Below, piece by piece: positions 337 to 54,665 of a DNA stretch of 64,000 nucleotides. The number at the start of each line of letters is the position of its first letter. The stretch's first letter is position 1. A model generated the notes under the pieces. That model was given only the letters and a program-made list of their open reading frames with translations, was not told the DNA's origin and did no database searches. Location of the stretch: assembly GCA_035544215.1 (NCBI GenBank), contig DATKHY010000004.1, positions 1 through 64,000 of the forward strand, given 5' to 3'. Source of the stretch: Candidatus Binatia bacterium. GTDB lineage: Bacteria > Vulcanimicrobiota > Vulcanimicrobiia > Vulcanimicrobiales > Vulcanimicrobiaceae. The position numbers and the translations under genes are program-made.

Positions 337-1427
337 CTGTGGAGCACTGTTTCATGGCCGCCGGGTGTGATGCTGAAGACCGTGCCGAAGCCGTGTTGAT
401 TGTAGGAGGAGCCGTACGCGCCGCCGTCCGCTGTCGTGCCGTAAAGCGTGCCGTTCATGTCACGCAAACCGGCCTCAGGACGGACGCCATCGTATCCGTT
501 GCCGAAGCTGTGGAGCACTGTTTCATGGCCGTCGGTCGAGACGTCAAAGACGGTGCCCCCGCGGAATGCACCGCCACTTTCCGTCGTTCCGTAGAGCTTG
601 CCATTCACGTTGATCAAGGGGGCCCGAGGGTATTTTCCGTCTTGGGCGTTGCTAAAGCTGTGCAACACTTTTTCCGTGCCGTCGGCCGCCATGCTGAAGA
701 CGGTGCCAAACCTTCCCGCGCCGCCGGCGTATGTCGTGCCGTAGAGCGTGCCGCTGACGTCGATCAACGGCACCATGGGCCAGTAACCGTCTTCGTAATA
801 GCCAAAGCTGTGCAGCACTCGTTCGGTTCCGTCGGTTGTGACGCTGAAGGCGGTGCCACGATCGCGCGCGCCGCCCTCCAGCGTCGTGCCGTAAAGCGTG
901 CCGCTTACGTCGATCAAACTTGCTTCAGGGCGGGTACCATCGGAACCATTGACGCCAAAGTTGTGCAACACTTTTTCGGTTCCGTCGGGTGTAATGCTGA
1001 AGACGACGCCGCATCCTCCCACGCAATTACCGCTGCCGCCGAAATATGTCGTGCCGTAGAACGTGCCTTTCACGTCGATCAAGCCTGCCAAGGGCCTCGC
1101 GCCGTCGCGGCCCCTGAAGCTGTGGAGCACTGTATCCGTGCCGCCGGAGTAGCTGAAAACGGTACCTGAATTGTCCGCGCCGCCAAACGCTGTCGTACCG
1201 TAGATTGGAAGGTCGCCCCGGGAAAGCACACCAGCGGCCGGTTCGGACCCATCGGGGTCCGCGCCGAAGCTGTACAATGACAGGTAAGAGCTCAGCCGGC
1301 CAGCCTTGTGGTTGGAAACGATGCTTGGAGCATATTGCAAGCGCGAGAGTCCCGGCGCTTGCGAGCATGCCGTGAGCATGACGAAGCACGCGAATAGCCC
1401 GCACCGGTTCAAACTCGGAGTCTTCAT
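213..1427 (-). CDS. GloVer-repeat (TIGR03803-type) surface lipoprotein
   Basis: A 404-residue exported protein. The start ATG at 1427 is chosen because AAAGGAG lies just upstream and because it begins a lipoprotein signal peptide with lipobox LTAC (Cys21). The mature part has seven repeats of the form YGTT..GG...GTVFS-TxxGTEKVLHSF, the Gloeobacter/Verrucomicrobia repeat; seven units suggest a seven-bladed beta-propeller (inference). Function is unknown for this family. The promoter lies in dispersed repeat A (1488-1574) and a terminator-like hairpin follows. The frame is open upstream of 1427 but that part is promoter DNA, not protein. Confidence 0.85.
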   Translation of the reverse strand: MKTPSLNRCGLFACFVMLTACSQAPGLSRLQYAPSIVSNHKAGRLSSYLSLYSFGADPDGSEPAAGVLSRGDLPIYGTTAFGGADNSGTVFSYSGGTDTVLHSFRGRDGARPLAGLIDVKGTFYGTTYFGGSGNCVGGCGVVFSITPDGTEKVLHNFGVNGSDGTRPEASLIDVSGTLYGTTLEGGARDRGTAFSVTTDGTERVLHSFGYYEDGYWPMVPLIDVSGTLYGTTYAGGAGRFGTVFSMAADGTEKVLHSFSNAQDGKYPRAPLINVNGKLYGTTESGGAFRGGTVFDVSTDGHETVLHSFGNGYDGVRPEAGLRDMNGTLYGTTADGGAYGSSYNQHGFGTVFSITPGGHETVLHSFGDGYDGAHPEAGLRDVSGMGLIGTTRYGGVYGRGTVFEL

Positions 1428-48728: not shown

Positions 48729-50099
48729 ATGAATCGCACCCGCTTCTCGGCGCTTGCTGTGATCGTAGCACTAGTTGGATGCTCCCAAAACACGACGTCG
48801 CCCACGCCACCCCCCGTGCCGTTAGCGGCTCGACCGGGCGGCTTGATGCACTCGCTTTCGGGCAGCGGCAGCACCCCGATCACACACGTCGTCATCGTAT
48901 TTCAAGAGAATCGCACCACAAATAACCTCTTCAACGGTCTTCCCGGCGCCGGTACCGTACGTACGGGGTCAAATACTTACGGCCAAACGGTGAAGCTCCA
49001 GCCTCGGCTTCTTACGGCCCCATACGACATCAGCCACGCGCACAGCGCGTTCACGACGGAATGGAATAACGGCCAGATGAACGGCTGGAATCTGGTCAAG
49101 TCCAGCTGCAAGAAGGGGCATACGTGTCCGCCCCCGGACGTTCGGGCGTACGGCTACGTCCCTGAAAAAGAAGTCGAGCCGTATTTCGTCATGGCTCGGC
49201 AATACGCGTTCGGCGCCAATATGTTCCAAACGAATCAGGGGCCGAGCTTTCCCGCCCACCAGTACATCTTGAGCGGCACGTCGACCATTTCAGACGGGTC
49301 CAACTTGCGCGCCGCCGAGAATCCGCAGACGCCCCAGAAAAAGAGCACCGGCGGCTGCGATTCGCCCACGGGATCGCTCGTGAAACTCATCGACCAGAAC
49401 GGGAACGAGAATCAGACGGCATATCCGTGCTTCGATCGTAACTCGCTCATCCAGCTCGTCGAGGCGCAGAATCTGACGTGGCACTATTATCAGGCGGGCC
49501 CGGGCCCGGGCCTATGGCACGGACCCGATGCGATCCTGCCCGTCTTTCAGAGCTCGCAGTTTGCCGCCGACGTCGTCAGCCCGCCCTCGCAGGTACTGAC
49601 CGACATCAAGAACGGGAATCTCGCGAACGTCGTGTGGGTAACGCCGACCGGAGCGGCCTCCGATCACGCCGGCAGCACAGACGGATCCGGGCCGTCGTGG
49701 GTGGCCTCCATCGTCAACACGATTGGGAAGAGCCAGTATTGGAACAACACCGCGATCTTCGTCACGTGGGACGATTGGGGCGGATGGTTCGATCCGGTCC
49801 CGCCGCCACAGTACAATTCCTATGAGCTCGGCTTCCGCGTGCCTCTGCTCGTCATCTCGGCGTATGCGAAGCAGAACTACATATCGAACGTGCAGCACGA
49901 GTTCGGCAGCATCCTGAAGTTCACCGAGAAGACGTTCGCACTCGGTTCGCTCGGCACGACCGACGCCCGCGCCGACGACCTGTCCGACTGCTTCAACTTC
50001 TCCAAGGGACCGCGAAAATTCAAGCCGATCCCAGCCCCGCACGATGCGCAATATTTCTTGCGCCAACCGGTCGGCGGCACGCCGGACGACGACTTCTAA
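48729..50099 (+). CDS. Secreted phosphoesterase lipoprotein (PF04185-type), copy 1
   Basis: 456 residues. Lipobox LVGC (Cys18). Phosphoesterase/phospholipase C-like alkaline-phosphatase fold: HVVIVFQENRTTNNLFNGLPGAGT (metal/nucleophile loop, usual QENRSFD), WHYYQAG, DHAGSTDGSGPSWV, and ILKFTEKTF. The late metal segment reads VTWDDWGGWFDPVPPP, like the VTyDehGGf of relatives. Members hydrolyse phosphate monoesters or phospholipids. A near-copy follows 39 bp later. Confidence 0.88.
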   Translation: MNRTRFSALAVIVALVGCSQNTTSPTPPPVPLAARPGGLMHSLSGSGSTPITHVVIVFQENRTTNNLFNGLPGAGTVRTGSNTYGQTVKLQPRLLTAPYDISHAHSAFTTEWNNGQMNGWNLVKSSCKKGHTCPPPDVRAYGYVPEKEVEPYFVMARQYAFGANMFQTNQGPSFPAHQYILSGTSTISDGSNLRAAENPQTPQKKSTGGCDSPTGSLVKLIDQNGNENQTAYPCFDRNSLIQLVEAQNLTWHYYQAGPGPGLWHGPDAILPVFQSSQFAADVVSPPSQVLTDIKNGNLANVVWVTPTGAASDHAGSTDGSGPSWVASIVNTIGKSQYWNNTAIFVTWDDWGGWFDPVPPPQYNSYELGFRVPLLVISAYAKQNYISNVQHEFGSILKFTEKTFALGSLGTTDARADDLSDCFNFSKGPRKFKPIPAPHDAQYFLRQPVGGTPDDDF

Positions 50100-50138
50100 A
50101 GGGGGCTAACGCCTTAGTGTAGCCAAGAGGACGTGCGG

Positions 50139-51497
50139 ATGAACCGCACGCGCCTCTTGGCTCTTGTCGTCGTTGCTGCGCTCGCAAACTGCTCGTCGGC
50201 TTCTACGCCGTCGTCCTCTCTGCCGTCCGCTCGCTCAGCCGGAAAAATTCGAACGCTTTCGGGCGGCACGTCGCCCATCCAGCACGTCGTCATCATCGTT
50301 CAGGAAAACCGGACGACGAACAACCTCTTCAACGGCCTTCCCGGCGCCGGGACCGTACGCGAGGGGAAAAACTCGCTCGGCCTGACGGTGCAACTCCAGC
50401 CTCGGCGTCTGACGGCGCCCTACTACATTGGGCACTCGCACAGCAATTTTGTGACCGAATATGCCAACGGCCGGCTCGACGGGTTCGATCTCGTGGCATC
50501 GCGATGCGAGACGGGCCGGAAATGTCCCCCTCCCGGAATCCGCGCGTACGGCTACGTCCCCCAACGGGAGGTCGAGCCGTATTTCAAGATGGCACAGCGC
50601 TACACGTTCGGGGCCAACATGTTTCAGACGAGTCAGGGCCCGAGCTTTCCTGCGCATCAATATCTCTTGAGCGGAACTTCGACGATCTTCGACGGATCGT
50701 CGCTGCGCGCCGCGGAGAGTCCGAAGACAGCCCGGCTCAAAAACACTGGCGGTTGCGATTCACCGCGCGACTCGACGGTGATGCTCATCGATCCGTACGG
50801 TAACGAGAATCAGAAGACGTATCCGTGCTTCGATCGCAATTCGCTCATCGCCCTCATCGACGCCAAGTCGCTGACGTGGCACTACTATCAGGCCGGCAAG
50901 GGGCCGGGACTCTGGCACGCGCCGGACGCGATCTTGCCGATCTTCAACCGGGCGGATTTCGCGGCGAACGTCGTCGGGCCGCCGGCTCGAGTGCTATGGG
51001 ACATCAAGAAGGGCCGGTTGGCGAACGTCGTTTGGGTCACGCCGACCGCCGCGGACTCCGATCACGCCGGCAGCACCGACGGTACAGGACCATCTTGGGT
51101 CGCTTCGATCGTGAATACGATCGGAAAGAGCCAGTATTGGACCAGCACCGCGATCTTCGTCGTCTGGGACGACTGGGGCGGCTGGTACGATCCCGCGCCG
51201 CCCCCGCAGTACAACTCTTACGAGCTTGGCTTCCGCGTGCCGCTGCTGGTGATCTCCCCGTACGCGAAGCAGAACTACGTCTCGACCGTCCAGCACGAGT
51301 TCGGCAGCATCTTGAAGTTCACCGAAGAGACGTTCAACCTCGGATCGCTCGGCACGACCGACGTACGCGCCGACGACCTCTCGGACTGCTTCAACTTCTC
51401 GAAGGGACCCAGCAAGTTCGTTCCGATTCCCGCCCTGCACGATGCGCAATACTTCTTGAGCCGGCCCAGCTCCGACGAACCGCCGGACGACGACTAG
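50139..51497 (+). CDS. Secreted phosphoesterase lipoprotein (PF04185-type), copy 2
   Basis: 452 residues from ATG 50139, which parallels the MNRTR start of copy 1; AGAGG lies 8 nt upstream. Lipobox LANC (Cys18). Same motifs: HVVIIVQENRTTNNLFNGLPGAG, WVTPTAADSDHAGSTDGTGPSWV, VVWDDWGGWYDPAPPP. High identity through the core shows recent tandem duplication; the two could have slightly different substrates. Confidence 0.88.
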   Translation: MNRTRLLALVVVAALANCSSASTPSSSLPSARSAGKIRTLSGGTSPIQHVVIIVQENRTTNNLFNGLPGAGTVREGKNSLGLTVQLQPRRLTAPYYIGHSHSNFVTEYANGRLDGFDLVASRCETGRKCPPPGIRAYGYVPQREVEPYFKMAQRYTFGANMFQTSQGPSFPAHQYLLSGTSTIFDGSSLRAAESPKTARLKNTGGCDSPRDSTVMLIDPYGNENQKTYPCFDRNSLIALIDAKSLTWHYYQAGKGPGLWHAPDAILPIFNRADFAANVVGPPARVLWDIKKGRLANVVWVTPTAADSDHAGSTDGTGPSWVASIVNTIGKSQYWTSTAIFVVWDDWGGWYDPAPPPQYNSYELGFRVPLLVISPYAKQNYVSTVQHEFGSILKFTEETFNLGSLGTTDVRADDLSDCFNFSKGPSKFVPIPALHDAQYFLSRPSSDEPPDDD

Positions 51498-52814: not shown

Positions 52815-53363
52815 ATGACCACCACCCAGCTGCAAGAGAAGGCCGTTTACGCCCTAGACCCGGCGCACACGACCATCGAATTCGTCGTCCGCCACCTGAT
52901 GATCACCAAGGTGCGCGGCCGCTTCACCGCCTTCGACGGGTCGGTCGAGCTGCAGCCCGACAGCGACGTGCCCGCCACGGTGGGCGCGACCATCCAGGCC
53001 GGCTCGGTAGACACCCGCGAAGATCAGCGCGACGCTCACCTGCGCTCGCCCGACTTCTTCGACGCCGAGAAGTTCCCGACGCTCGCGTTCGAGAGCACCC
53101 GTATCTACGGCACGCCAGACGAGTTGACGATCGACGGCAAACTGACGATCCGCGGTATCACGCGCGACGTGACGCTTCGCGGCAGTTTCGAGGGCCGGGC
53201 GAACGATCCGTGGGGCGGCGTGCGCGTCGGTTACAGCGCCCACACGACGATCAACCGCAAGGACTTCGGCCTCGCCTGGAACGCCGCGCTCGAGACGGGC
53301 GGCGTCGTCGTCGGCGACGAGGTGCGCATCGAACTCAACGTCGAGGCGATTCGCAAGCAATAA
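52815..53363 (+). CDS. YceI-family lipid-binding protein
   Basis: 182 residues. Single lipocalin-like YceI domain: YALDPAHTTIEFVVRHLMITKVRGRFTAFDG, SVDTREDQRDAHLRSPDFFDAEKFPTLAFEST, GKLTIRGITRDVTLRG, INRKDFGLAWN. Members bind isoprenoid quinones or other lipids. It lacks a signal peptide, so it is cytosolic, unlike E. coli YceI. Divergent from HxlR; ends convergently with the HAD gene (29-bp overlap). Confidence 0.92.
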   Translation: MTTTQLQEKAVYALDPAHTTIEFVVRHLMITKVRGRFTAFDGSVELQPDSDVPATVGATIQAGSVDTREDQRDAHLRSPDFFDAEKFPTLAFESTRIYGTPDELTIDGKLTIRGITRDVTLRGSFEGRANDPWGGVRVGYSAHTTINRKDFGLAWNAALETGGVVVGDEVRIELNVEAIRKQ

Positions 53364-54087
53364 TCGCCTCGATCACGTGCTTCGTCTCCTCGGGATCGCG
53401 CACTTGGATCGTGTCGGTACCGGCCTCCTTCGCCGGATAGTCGTTCCCGCCCGGAAAGATCGCGTCGCCGATGAACAGCATCTCGGCGATCGGGATGCCC
53501 AACTCGTCGCGCAGCTTGCGGATGCCGTAGGCCTTGTCGACGCCCGGGCGGGTAACGTCGATCGACGTCGTGCCGCCGAGCCGAACCGAAAACTCTGGCA
53601 GCGTCTTGGCGAGGATCGCCTGAATCTGCTTGCGTTTCGAAAAATCGGGATCCCACTTTTCCTTCGCCTCGAGCGGCGCTTGCTGGCCAAGCGCGGAGTA
53701 CGTGATCTGCGTTCCGCGATCCTCGATGCGTTCGCCCCACGTCTCCGTAGGCTGAAAGCCCGTCGCGGCGACCGCGCTCTCGAGCGCGTCTTCGATCTCC
53801 TTCTTTTGTTCGTTGGTGAGATCTTCGGAGTAGAGCTTGCGCCACTGGCCGTCGTACACAAAGAACTTCGTCCCCGAGGTGGGTAGGATCGAGAGGTTGG
53901 CAAAGTCGCTGCCGTCCGGGAGCCGCTCGAGCACCTGCTTTTGGAACTGCGGATAGTCGCCGCCCGAAATGATCGCGACCTTGATCTCATCGATGAGGCG
54001 GCCGAGGAGGGCCGCCATCTCATCGTCCAGCGCTGCCTTGCTCAACGCGAGCGTGCCGTCCAGGTCGAAGACGATGAGGCGCTTCAA
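53335..54087 (-). CDS. HAD-superfamily hydrolase (HAD-IIB, phosphomannomutase/sugar-phosphatase-like)
   Basis: 250 residues from TTG 54087, overlapping the end of the thioredoxin-like gene (TTGA). Motif I IVFDLDGT (Asp8, Asp10), AIISGG (motif II), KxxxL in DKAYGIRKL, and MLFIGDAIFPGGNDYPA (motif IV). The cap and order match HAD-IIB phosphatases/phosphomannomutases. Phosphatase on a sugar or nucleotide phosphate; substrate unknown. Translationally coupled to the candidate selenoprotein. Confidence 0.88.
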   Translation of the reverse strand: MKRLIVFDLDGTLALSKAALDDEMAALLGRLIDEIKVAIISGGDYPQFQKQVLERLPDGSDFANLSILPTSGTKFFVYDGQWRKLYSEDLTNEQKKEIEDALESAVAATGFQPTETWGERIEDRGTQITYSALGQQAPLEAKEKWDPDFSKRKQIQAILAKTLPEFSVRLGGTTSIDVTRPGVDKAYGIRKLRDELGIPIAEMLFIGDAIFPGGNDYPAKEAGTDTIQVRDPEETKHVIEAIIACESPRR

Positions 54088-54665
54088 GGCAGCTCTTTGA
54101 AGGATTGTTTCACGCGGTACTCGCTGAGCGGATAGCGCGAGCGAAGGTTGTCCCACTGCTTCAAGAGCTCGTCGCTATCGGGGTCGCGGCGGTAGCGCGT
54201 CACGCCCAGATAGTAGAGTGCTTCGGGCGCAGCATAGGTCGTGGAGAAGCGCGTCAGCACGTCGGCGTAGCACGCCTCGGCCTGGTCGAAGCGCTTTAAT
54301 CGCAGGTACGCCATGCCGAATCCGCACAGCGTCTTCGCGAGGAACTCGTCCGGCGGCAGAAAGCCGTCCCAGCGGTACAACTCGGCGCCGTCGTGGTACA
54401 GGATGCGAATGTCCGGCGTCCAGATGTGATGTATGGCGTGCAGGAATTTGTTGTTCTCGGACTTGGAGTTGTCGAACTGAACCGGCACGCTATGGGCGAC
54501 GATCGCGTCGACGACCGGAGGTTGAGGATACGTCACGGTATCCAGCGCTTGGCATCCCCCTCAACCAGGGTTGAACACATCGAGAAAGACGAACTTGCGC
54601 TCCGACGTCGCGCGCTCGAGCGCCGCCTCGTAGTCGGACATCCAGGGAATGTGTGCCACGGTCAT
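54084..54665 (-). CDS. Thioredoxin-like/TPR protein, probable selenoprotein (in-frame UGA)
   Basis: 193 residues if UGA 54563-54561 is read as Sec35; ATG 54665, or GTG 54659 (GGAGG 7 nt before). The thioredoxin-like half reads KFVFLDVFNPG-U-GG-C-QALDTVTYP, so UGA replaces the first Cys of the CxxC redox site; relatives have FFNPxCxxCQ. The frame, codon bias and similarity continue unbroken beyond UGA (VPVQFDNSKSENN), then TPR-like FGMAYLRLKRFDQAEACYADVL follows. A hairpin starts 17 nt after UGA (see SECIS-like entry). A nonsense mutation cannot be excluded; the Sec genes would have to be found elsewhere. Confidence 0.7.
54520..54566 (-). promoter_or_regulatory. SECIS-like stem-loop following the UGA
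   Basis: Minus strand: GGATAC (54543-54538), 6-nt loop CGUGAC, GUAUCC (54531-54526), a perfect 6-bp stem whose loop begins 24 nt after UGA and has G in its second position. An outer stem GGUUGA (54566-54561, including the UGA) pairs with UCAACC (54525-54520). Bacterial SECIS elements have such a stem-loop with a loop 16-37 nt downstream of UGA and a G among the first two loop bases. Confidence 0.6.

Follow-up and report, generated by a model that had tools for sequence, protein, structure and literature searches.

A probable selenoprotein gene joining a thioredoxin-like domain to a TPR tail in Eremiobacterota, with UGA at the active-site codon of all 37 loci covering the site

The C-terminal domain of DsbD (DsbD-gamma) and DsbH, which are among the nearest solved folds and sequence profiles to the protein described here, are Cys-based, lack a TPR tail and are periplasmic or membrane-linked. 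In CnoX/YbbN a thioredoxin domain precedes a TPR region, the same order as in our protein, but the protein is longer, contains no selenocysteine (Sec) and superposes poorly. The selenoprotein catalogue of 2026 lists many UxxC thioredoxin-like families, and neither ‘TPR’ nor ‘tetratricopeptide’ occurs in its text (PMC13188914). One entry, ‘thiol:disulfide interchange protein’ (PF13098; WP_011366075.1), combines Thioredoxin_2 with UxxC as our protein does; it might overlap with the family described here, from which it is set apart by its description only, which mentions no TPR (PMC13188914). VPGUxxT type 2 (NF041383; OS_HP5) is likewise thioredoxin-like with an active-site PGU and matches locally over residues 5-93, but its model is longer and, by its name, it has T at the second active-site position, where the present family has C. 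The Trx7/PDZ domain (seleno)protein (NF041199) shares a Thioredoxin_7-type domain with Sec, but differs in its CxxU motif and PDZ domain, and scores at most 12.2 bits against a cut-off of 300 in the members scanned. Such families still turn up regularly: the deep-Sep study described nine new bacterial selenoprotein families and states that its predictor may miss selenoproteins without Cys homologues. A literature search found no selenoprotein work on Eremiobacterota.

The gene lies in the window, the stretch of 64,000 nucleotides that was analysed, which belongs to an Eremiobacterota genome (G000; 3.23 Mb, 97% complete); a protein search also turned up a near relative that is a Candidatus Eremiobacterota MAG. 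Retranslation of the minus strand from 54665 to 54084, with UGA read as U, agrees with the original prediction of a frame unbroken save for one UGA at 54563-54561, which is followed by 158 open codons, and coding runs on as far as a second UGA (54086-54084), which ends the gene. Around the active site the sequence is FNPG-U-GG-C-QALD. The predicted span had begun at 54665; GGAGG lies 7 nt ahead of GTG 54659-54657 and the ATG of close relatives aligns with this GTG in the family alignment, which makes GTG the likelier start; the ATG at 54665 would also be possible. We regard the gene as an intact selenoprotein gene rather than a broken one, with a probability of about 95%, based on the continuity of the frame, the universal UGA, purifying selection on both sides, a conserved hairpin, the decoding machinery and the predicted fold, all computed here. 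From these, we infer Sec insertion at residue 35. The features are collected in Table 1.

Table 1. Features of the locus in window coordinates.
Feature	Position	Strand	Basis or remark
Probable selenoprotein gene, Thioredoxin_7-like domain + TPR tail	54084..54659	-	Translation, Pfam, alignment, AlphaFold
In-frame UGA, predicted Sec, residue 35 numbered from ATG 54665, first position of UxxC	54561..54563	-	37/37 homologues + Sec machinery
UGC codon, putative resolving Cys38 of U-G-G-C; invariant in family	54552..54554	-	Alignment
Candidate bSECIS-like hairpin GGAUAC-CGUGAC-GUAUCC	54526..54543	-	RNAalifold, alignment; apical loop 23 nt past UGA
Invariant Pro84, WTP motif; putative thioredoxin cis-proline position	54414..54416	-	Alignment
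TPR tail, about residues 110-193	54087..54338	-	Pfam + model helices H105-122, H126-139, H145-160, H166-177
HAD-IIB family hydrolase; its start overlaps the stop of the probable selenoprotein gene (TTGA)	53335..54087	-	Neighbour, not part of the system

Homologues were searched for in 149 Eremiobacterota genomes, in which 37 loci, including that of the window, cover the UGA site; in a 38th (G125) the gene runs off the end of a contig. The codon of residue 35 is UGA in all 37, and Cys, Ser, UAA or UAG was found there in none of them, so that the UGA is not a matter of chance. Extra stops in some homologues are natural terminators. No Cys homologues of the thioredoxin-TPR family were found among the 149 genomes, the next-best matches being far weaker thioredoxin-only or DsbD/DUF255-like proteins that bear Cys. 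The homologues are spread over the genus of the window and its family; within the class they also occur in one further family, and two distantly related families have members in G001 and G002 with 33-34% identity in the alignment; two loci that are the same over the gene (L013 and L014) probably represent one MAG in two collections. In the scans aimed at relatives outside Eremiobacterota, genome contigs yielded one locus, again from the same phylum, and plasmids and viral contigs yielded none.

In 11 homologue pairs, pN/pS lies between 0.15 and 0.50 ahead of the UGA and between 0.09 and 0.26 past it, and the sequence is thus under purifying selection as protein on either side of it. These values bear directly on the reading of the UGA as a true stop, by which the locus would be a pseudogene or would encode a short peptide and a separately started ORF. 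A 150-codon ORF beginning at GTG 54536, downstream of the UGA, speaks for such an arrangement. However, beside the selection on both sides, a true stop would hardly be kept as UGA at 37 of 37 loci and never as UAA or UAG, nor would a single stop at a catalytic codon persist across a phylum in a pseudogene, and the invariant residues from either side of the codon build one thioredoxin fold. We therefore consider termination at this codon extremely improbable. The similarity on both sides of the UGA, on which the case for Sec insertion had been built, carries on in the homologues without downstream decay, and together with the machinery and the conserved hairpin it favours the pattern of Sec insertion over that of a random stop; the proposed comparison of the homologues at this codon returned UGA throughout and Cys in none.

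Constraint beyond that on the protein is seen directly after the UGA. Over the first 12 codons, pS does not exceed 0.10 in 7 of the 11 pairs, that is, in all but L024/L025, L029/L031, L041/L090 and L087/L091, whereas farther downstream it is mostly 0.4-0.7. At L41-Y46 the codons hardly depart from CTG GAT ACC GTG ACG TAT, while the same residues vary elsewhere in the gene, and the excess of codon homozygosity is significant (Mann-Whitney p=5e-4). RNAalifold, run on 30 sequences, returns exactly one helix in this region, GGAUAC/GUAUCC around CGUGAC, with pairing held in 180/180 cells counted; the stem has 6 bp and the loop 6 nt, with G in second place followed by U. One stem pair is changed from A-U to G-C in L039, L085 and L086, a double change that consists of a silent TAT->TAC alongside Asp->Gly and that may be a single event, because L039 is the basal branch of its clade in the tree. 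Loop size, position of the G, stem length and the 23-nt spacing agree with the published bSECIS model, which sets a free-energy limit of -7.5 kcal/mol (PMC13188914). The isolated hairpin of the window, with -6.0 kcal/mol, lies above this limit, and those of L039, L085 and L086 reach -8.0 to -11.6. With the hairpin imposed, a 57-nt region of the window has -14.8 kcal/mol, as opposed to -17.1 for the unconstrained fold, which prefers another pairing, and the 76-nt fold around the UGA is no more stable than shuffled sequences (z -0.51), so stability by itself is uninformative. The frozen synonymous positions and the conserved hairpin together suggest a candidate bacterial SECIS-like element, to which the original prediction made no reference.

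Use of Sec requires selA, selB, selC and selD in the genome, as had been pointed out in the original prediction, and all four are detected above cut-off in G000: selC as a tRNA-Sec of 70.5 bits (cut-off 47), which ARAGORN also calls as tRNA-SeC with anticodon UCA, selB with 289.8 bits (cut-off 242), selA with 527.4 (cut-off 268) and selD with 384.4 (cut-off 125). One contig holds selC, selB and selA within about 35 kb. The genome also has a second selenoprotein gene, for a formate dehydrogenase-like molybdopterin enzyme (contig C7:1288877-1290745; L115, L119), whose UGA stands in NRT-U-HAPS, a classic UHxP site, with a stem-loop after it that contains a GGUCU segment like that of E. coli; a textbook selenoprotein is therefore present as a control. 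UGA is the leakiest stop codon, and this general property would favour read-through without Sec, either by a near-cognate tRNA or by reassignment of UGA to Trp or Cys. Against this, the window gene and several homologues also end naturally in UGA; further arguments are the full Sec machinery, the frozen hairpin just past the codon and the position of the UGA at the catalytic Cys of the fold. We give this explanation next to no weight.

Across the phylum, selA is above cut-off in 36/38 family-bearing genomes and in 85/111 of the others (Fisher p=0.008, a guide only, as related genomes are counted as independent). Taken by itself, tRNA-Sec does not co-occur significantly with the family in the 149 genomes (p=0.11), since Sec machinery is present in most members of the phylum anyway. 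The eight genomes of genus g17 are without selA, and the family is wholly absent from them. One exception, G146, carries the family gene without selA above cut-off, and is 63% complete with tRNA-Sec present. The other, G101 (96% complete, 370 contigs), has an intact UGA-containing family gene (L088), but a search of it gave no selA and no clear tRNA-Sec; an assembly gap in the form of a missing contig is likely, the alternative being a recent loss of Sec decoding. A further selA match, at G045:C21:69523-70815, contains one internal TGA and may be a broken copy, an assembly error or something else.

At the N-terminus, Pfam identifies Thioredoxin_7 with 34.7 bits, above its cut-off, and Thioredoxin_2 (PF13098) with 29 bits against a cut-off of 27. 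The C-terminus of the window protein gives TPR matches below threshold, and TPR_16 matches 14/23 family members at E<0.001. An AlphaFold2 model, computed from the 23-sequence alignment with Cys in place of Sec (pLDDT 91.6, pTM 0.88), has a thioredoxin fold followed by four tail helices, in line with the thioredoxin-like domain and TPR-like tail first proposed from the DNA; the tail superposes on the TPR domain of YbgF with an rmsd of 1.6-1.7 A. Residue 35 directly precedes helix 36-40, as in thioredoxins. The features by which a thioredoxin-fold oxidoreductase is recognised, namely a PF13899/PF13098 profile, the motif before a helix and Pro at the predicted cis-Pro site, are all found. Among the PDB matches of lowest E-value are a thioredoxin from Thermus and a disulfide isomerase from Bacteroides, together with DsbH and DsbD-gamma.

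The protein most likely acts as a selenol/thiol-disulfide oxidoreductase, with the TPR tail as a docking site for partners, a role assigned by analogy to enzymes of the thioredoxin fold. It would be cytosolic, judging by eye from the lack of an obvious signal peptide. In the proposed mechanism, SelB with Sec-tRNA(Sec) would bind the hairpin 18-35 nt past the UGA, so that selenocysteine would take the leading place in the active site of the thioredoxin fold, PG-U-GG-C. The selenolate of U35 would then attack an oxidised substrate such as a disulfide or a sulfenic acid, Cys38 would resolve the selenenylsulfide, and the TPR tail would most likely hold a protein partner or substrate. A more specific proposal is a seleno-chaperedoxin which, like CnoX/YbbN of E. 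coli, would bind unfolding clients and shield or reduce their oxidised cysteines. The shared domain order and the presence of the YbbN-type structures 3qou and 3qdn among the fold matches point in this direction; however, YbbN superposes at an rmsd of 11.5-20.8 A (TMq 0.34-0.39), the thioredoxin domain is nearer to DsbD-gamma/DsbH, and the window protein has 193 residues as opposed to about 282. Membership in CnoX/YbbN was accordingly rejected for want of a whole-length structural match, which leaves only the idea of a functional likeness, and this we consider rather unlikely. The general role as a selenol/thiol-disulfide oxidoreductase is preferred.

With respect to novelty, no NCBIfam model (June 2026) is above cut-off for the window protein, the nearest selenoprotein models being VPGUxxT type 2 and TsoB. 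The protein might nevertheless belong to a catalogued selenoprotein family, either one of these two or the ‘thiol:disulfide interchange protein’ with PF13098 and UxxC, which would explain its match to PF13098 above the cut-off and the weak matches to VPGUxxT (NF041383, 30 bits) and TsoB (NF045694, 24.7 bits). The cut-offs of the latter two are 275 and 805 bits and their models are longer, with 287 and 572 positions, so membership in VPGUxxT and in TsoB was rejected; overall, an already catalogued family is improbable. The initial claim that a thioredoxin-TPR fusion matches no known selenoprotein type is consistent with the scores below the NCBIfam cut-offs and with the lack of a Trx-TPR entry in the 2026 catalogue. 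A different thioredoxin-like UGA gene was observed in another family of the phylum, with the motifs ENPG-U-EGCQFF (L093; G051:C624, ~503-700, minus strand) and ENPG-U-AGCQAF (L110; G027:C101); it is related to VPGUxxT type 2, and L093 scores 64.8 bits, below the cut-off of 275.

The surroundings of the gene were also compared. A coupling of the following HAD gene through TTGA had been described; the overlap exists in the window, L013 and L020, and the HAD gene is absent at the remaining loci examined. At a locus of the same genus (L094), the family gene adjoins a YceI-like neighbour without HAD, and clustering of ORFs revealed no conserved neighbourhood besides the family gene itself. Because only the window and two relatives carry it among the examined loci, the HAD neighbour is uninformative, and its coupling was discarded as a functional clue; a general functional link to the HAD phosphatase, whose coupling had been stressed at the outset, is not supported, HAD being common only to close relatives. 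Elsewhere in the window (48729-51497), the ORF list contains two neighbouring paralogues of 456 and 454 aa, which by eye are putative secreted phospholipase C/phosphoesterase-like proteins.

While the decoding mechanism is textbook knowledge, what appears to be new is the Trx-TPR selenoprotein family, which is distinguished from the PF13098 catalogue entry by description only. A bolder reading, which we hold to be less likely than not, is an uncatalogued Sec-only family, never with Cys throughout Eremiobacterota, that is possibly a selenium-based chaperedoxin in which the selenol would reduce or protect TPR-bound clients. Standard annotation likely truncates or misses the gene in each Eremiobacterota genome bearing it. 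The selenoproteome gains a Trx-TPR architecture, and the lack of any Cys form at 37 loci makes the family unusual. What Sec contributes to a TPR-linked thioredoxin could be tested directly with it.
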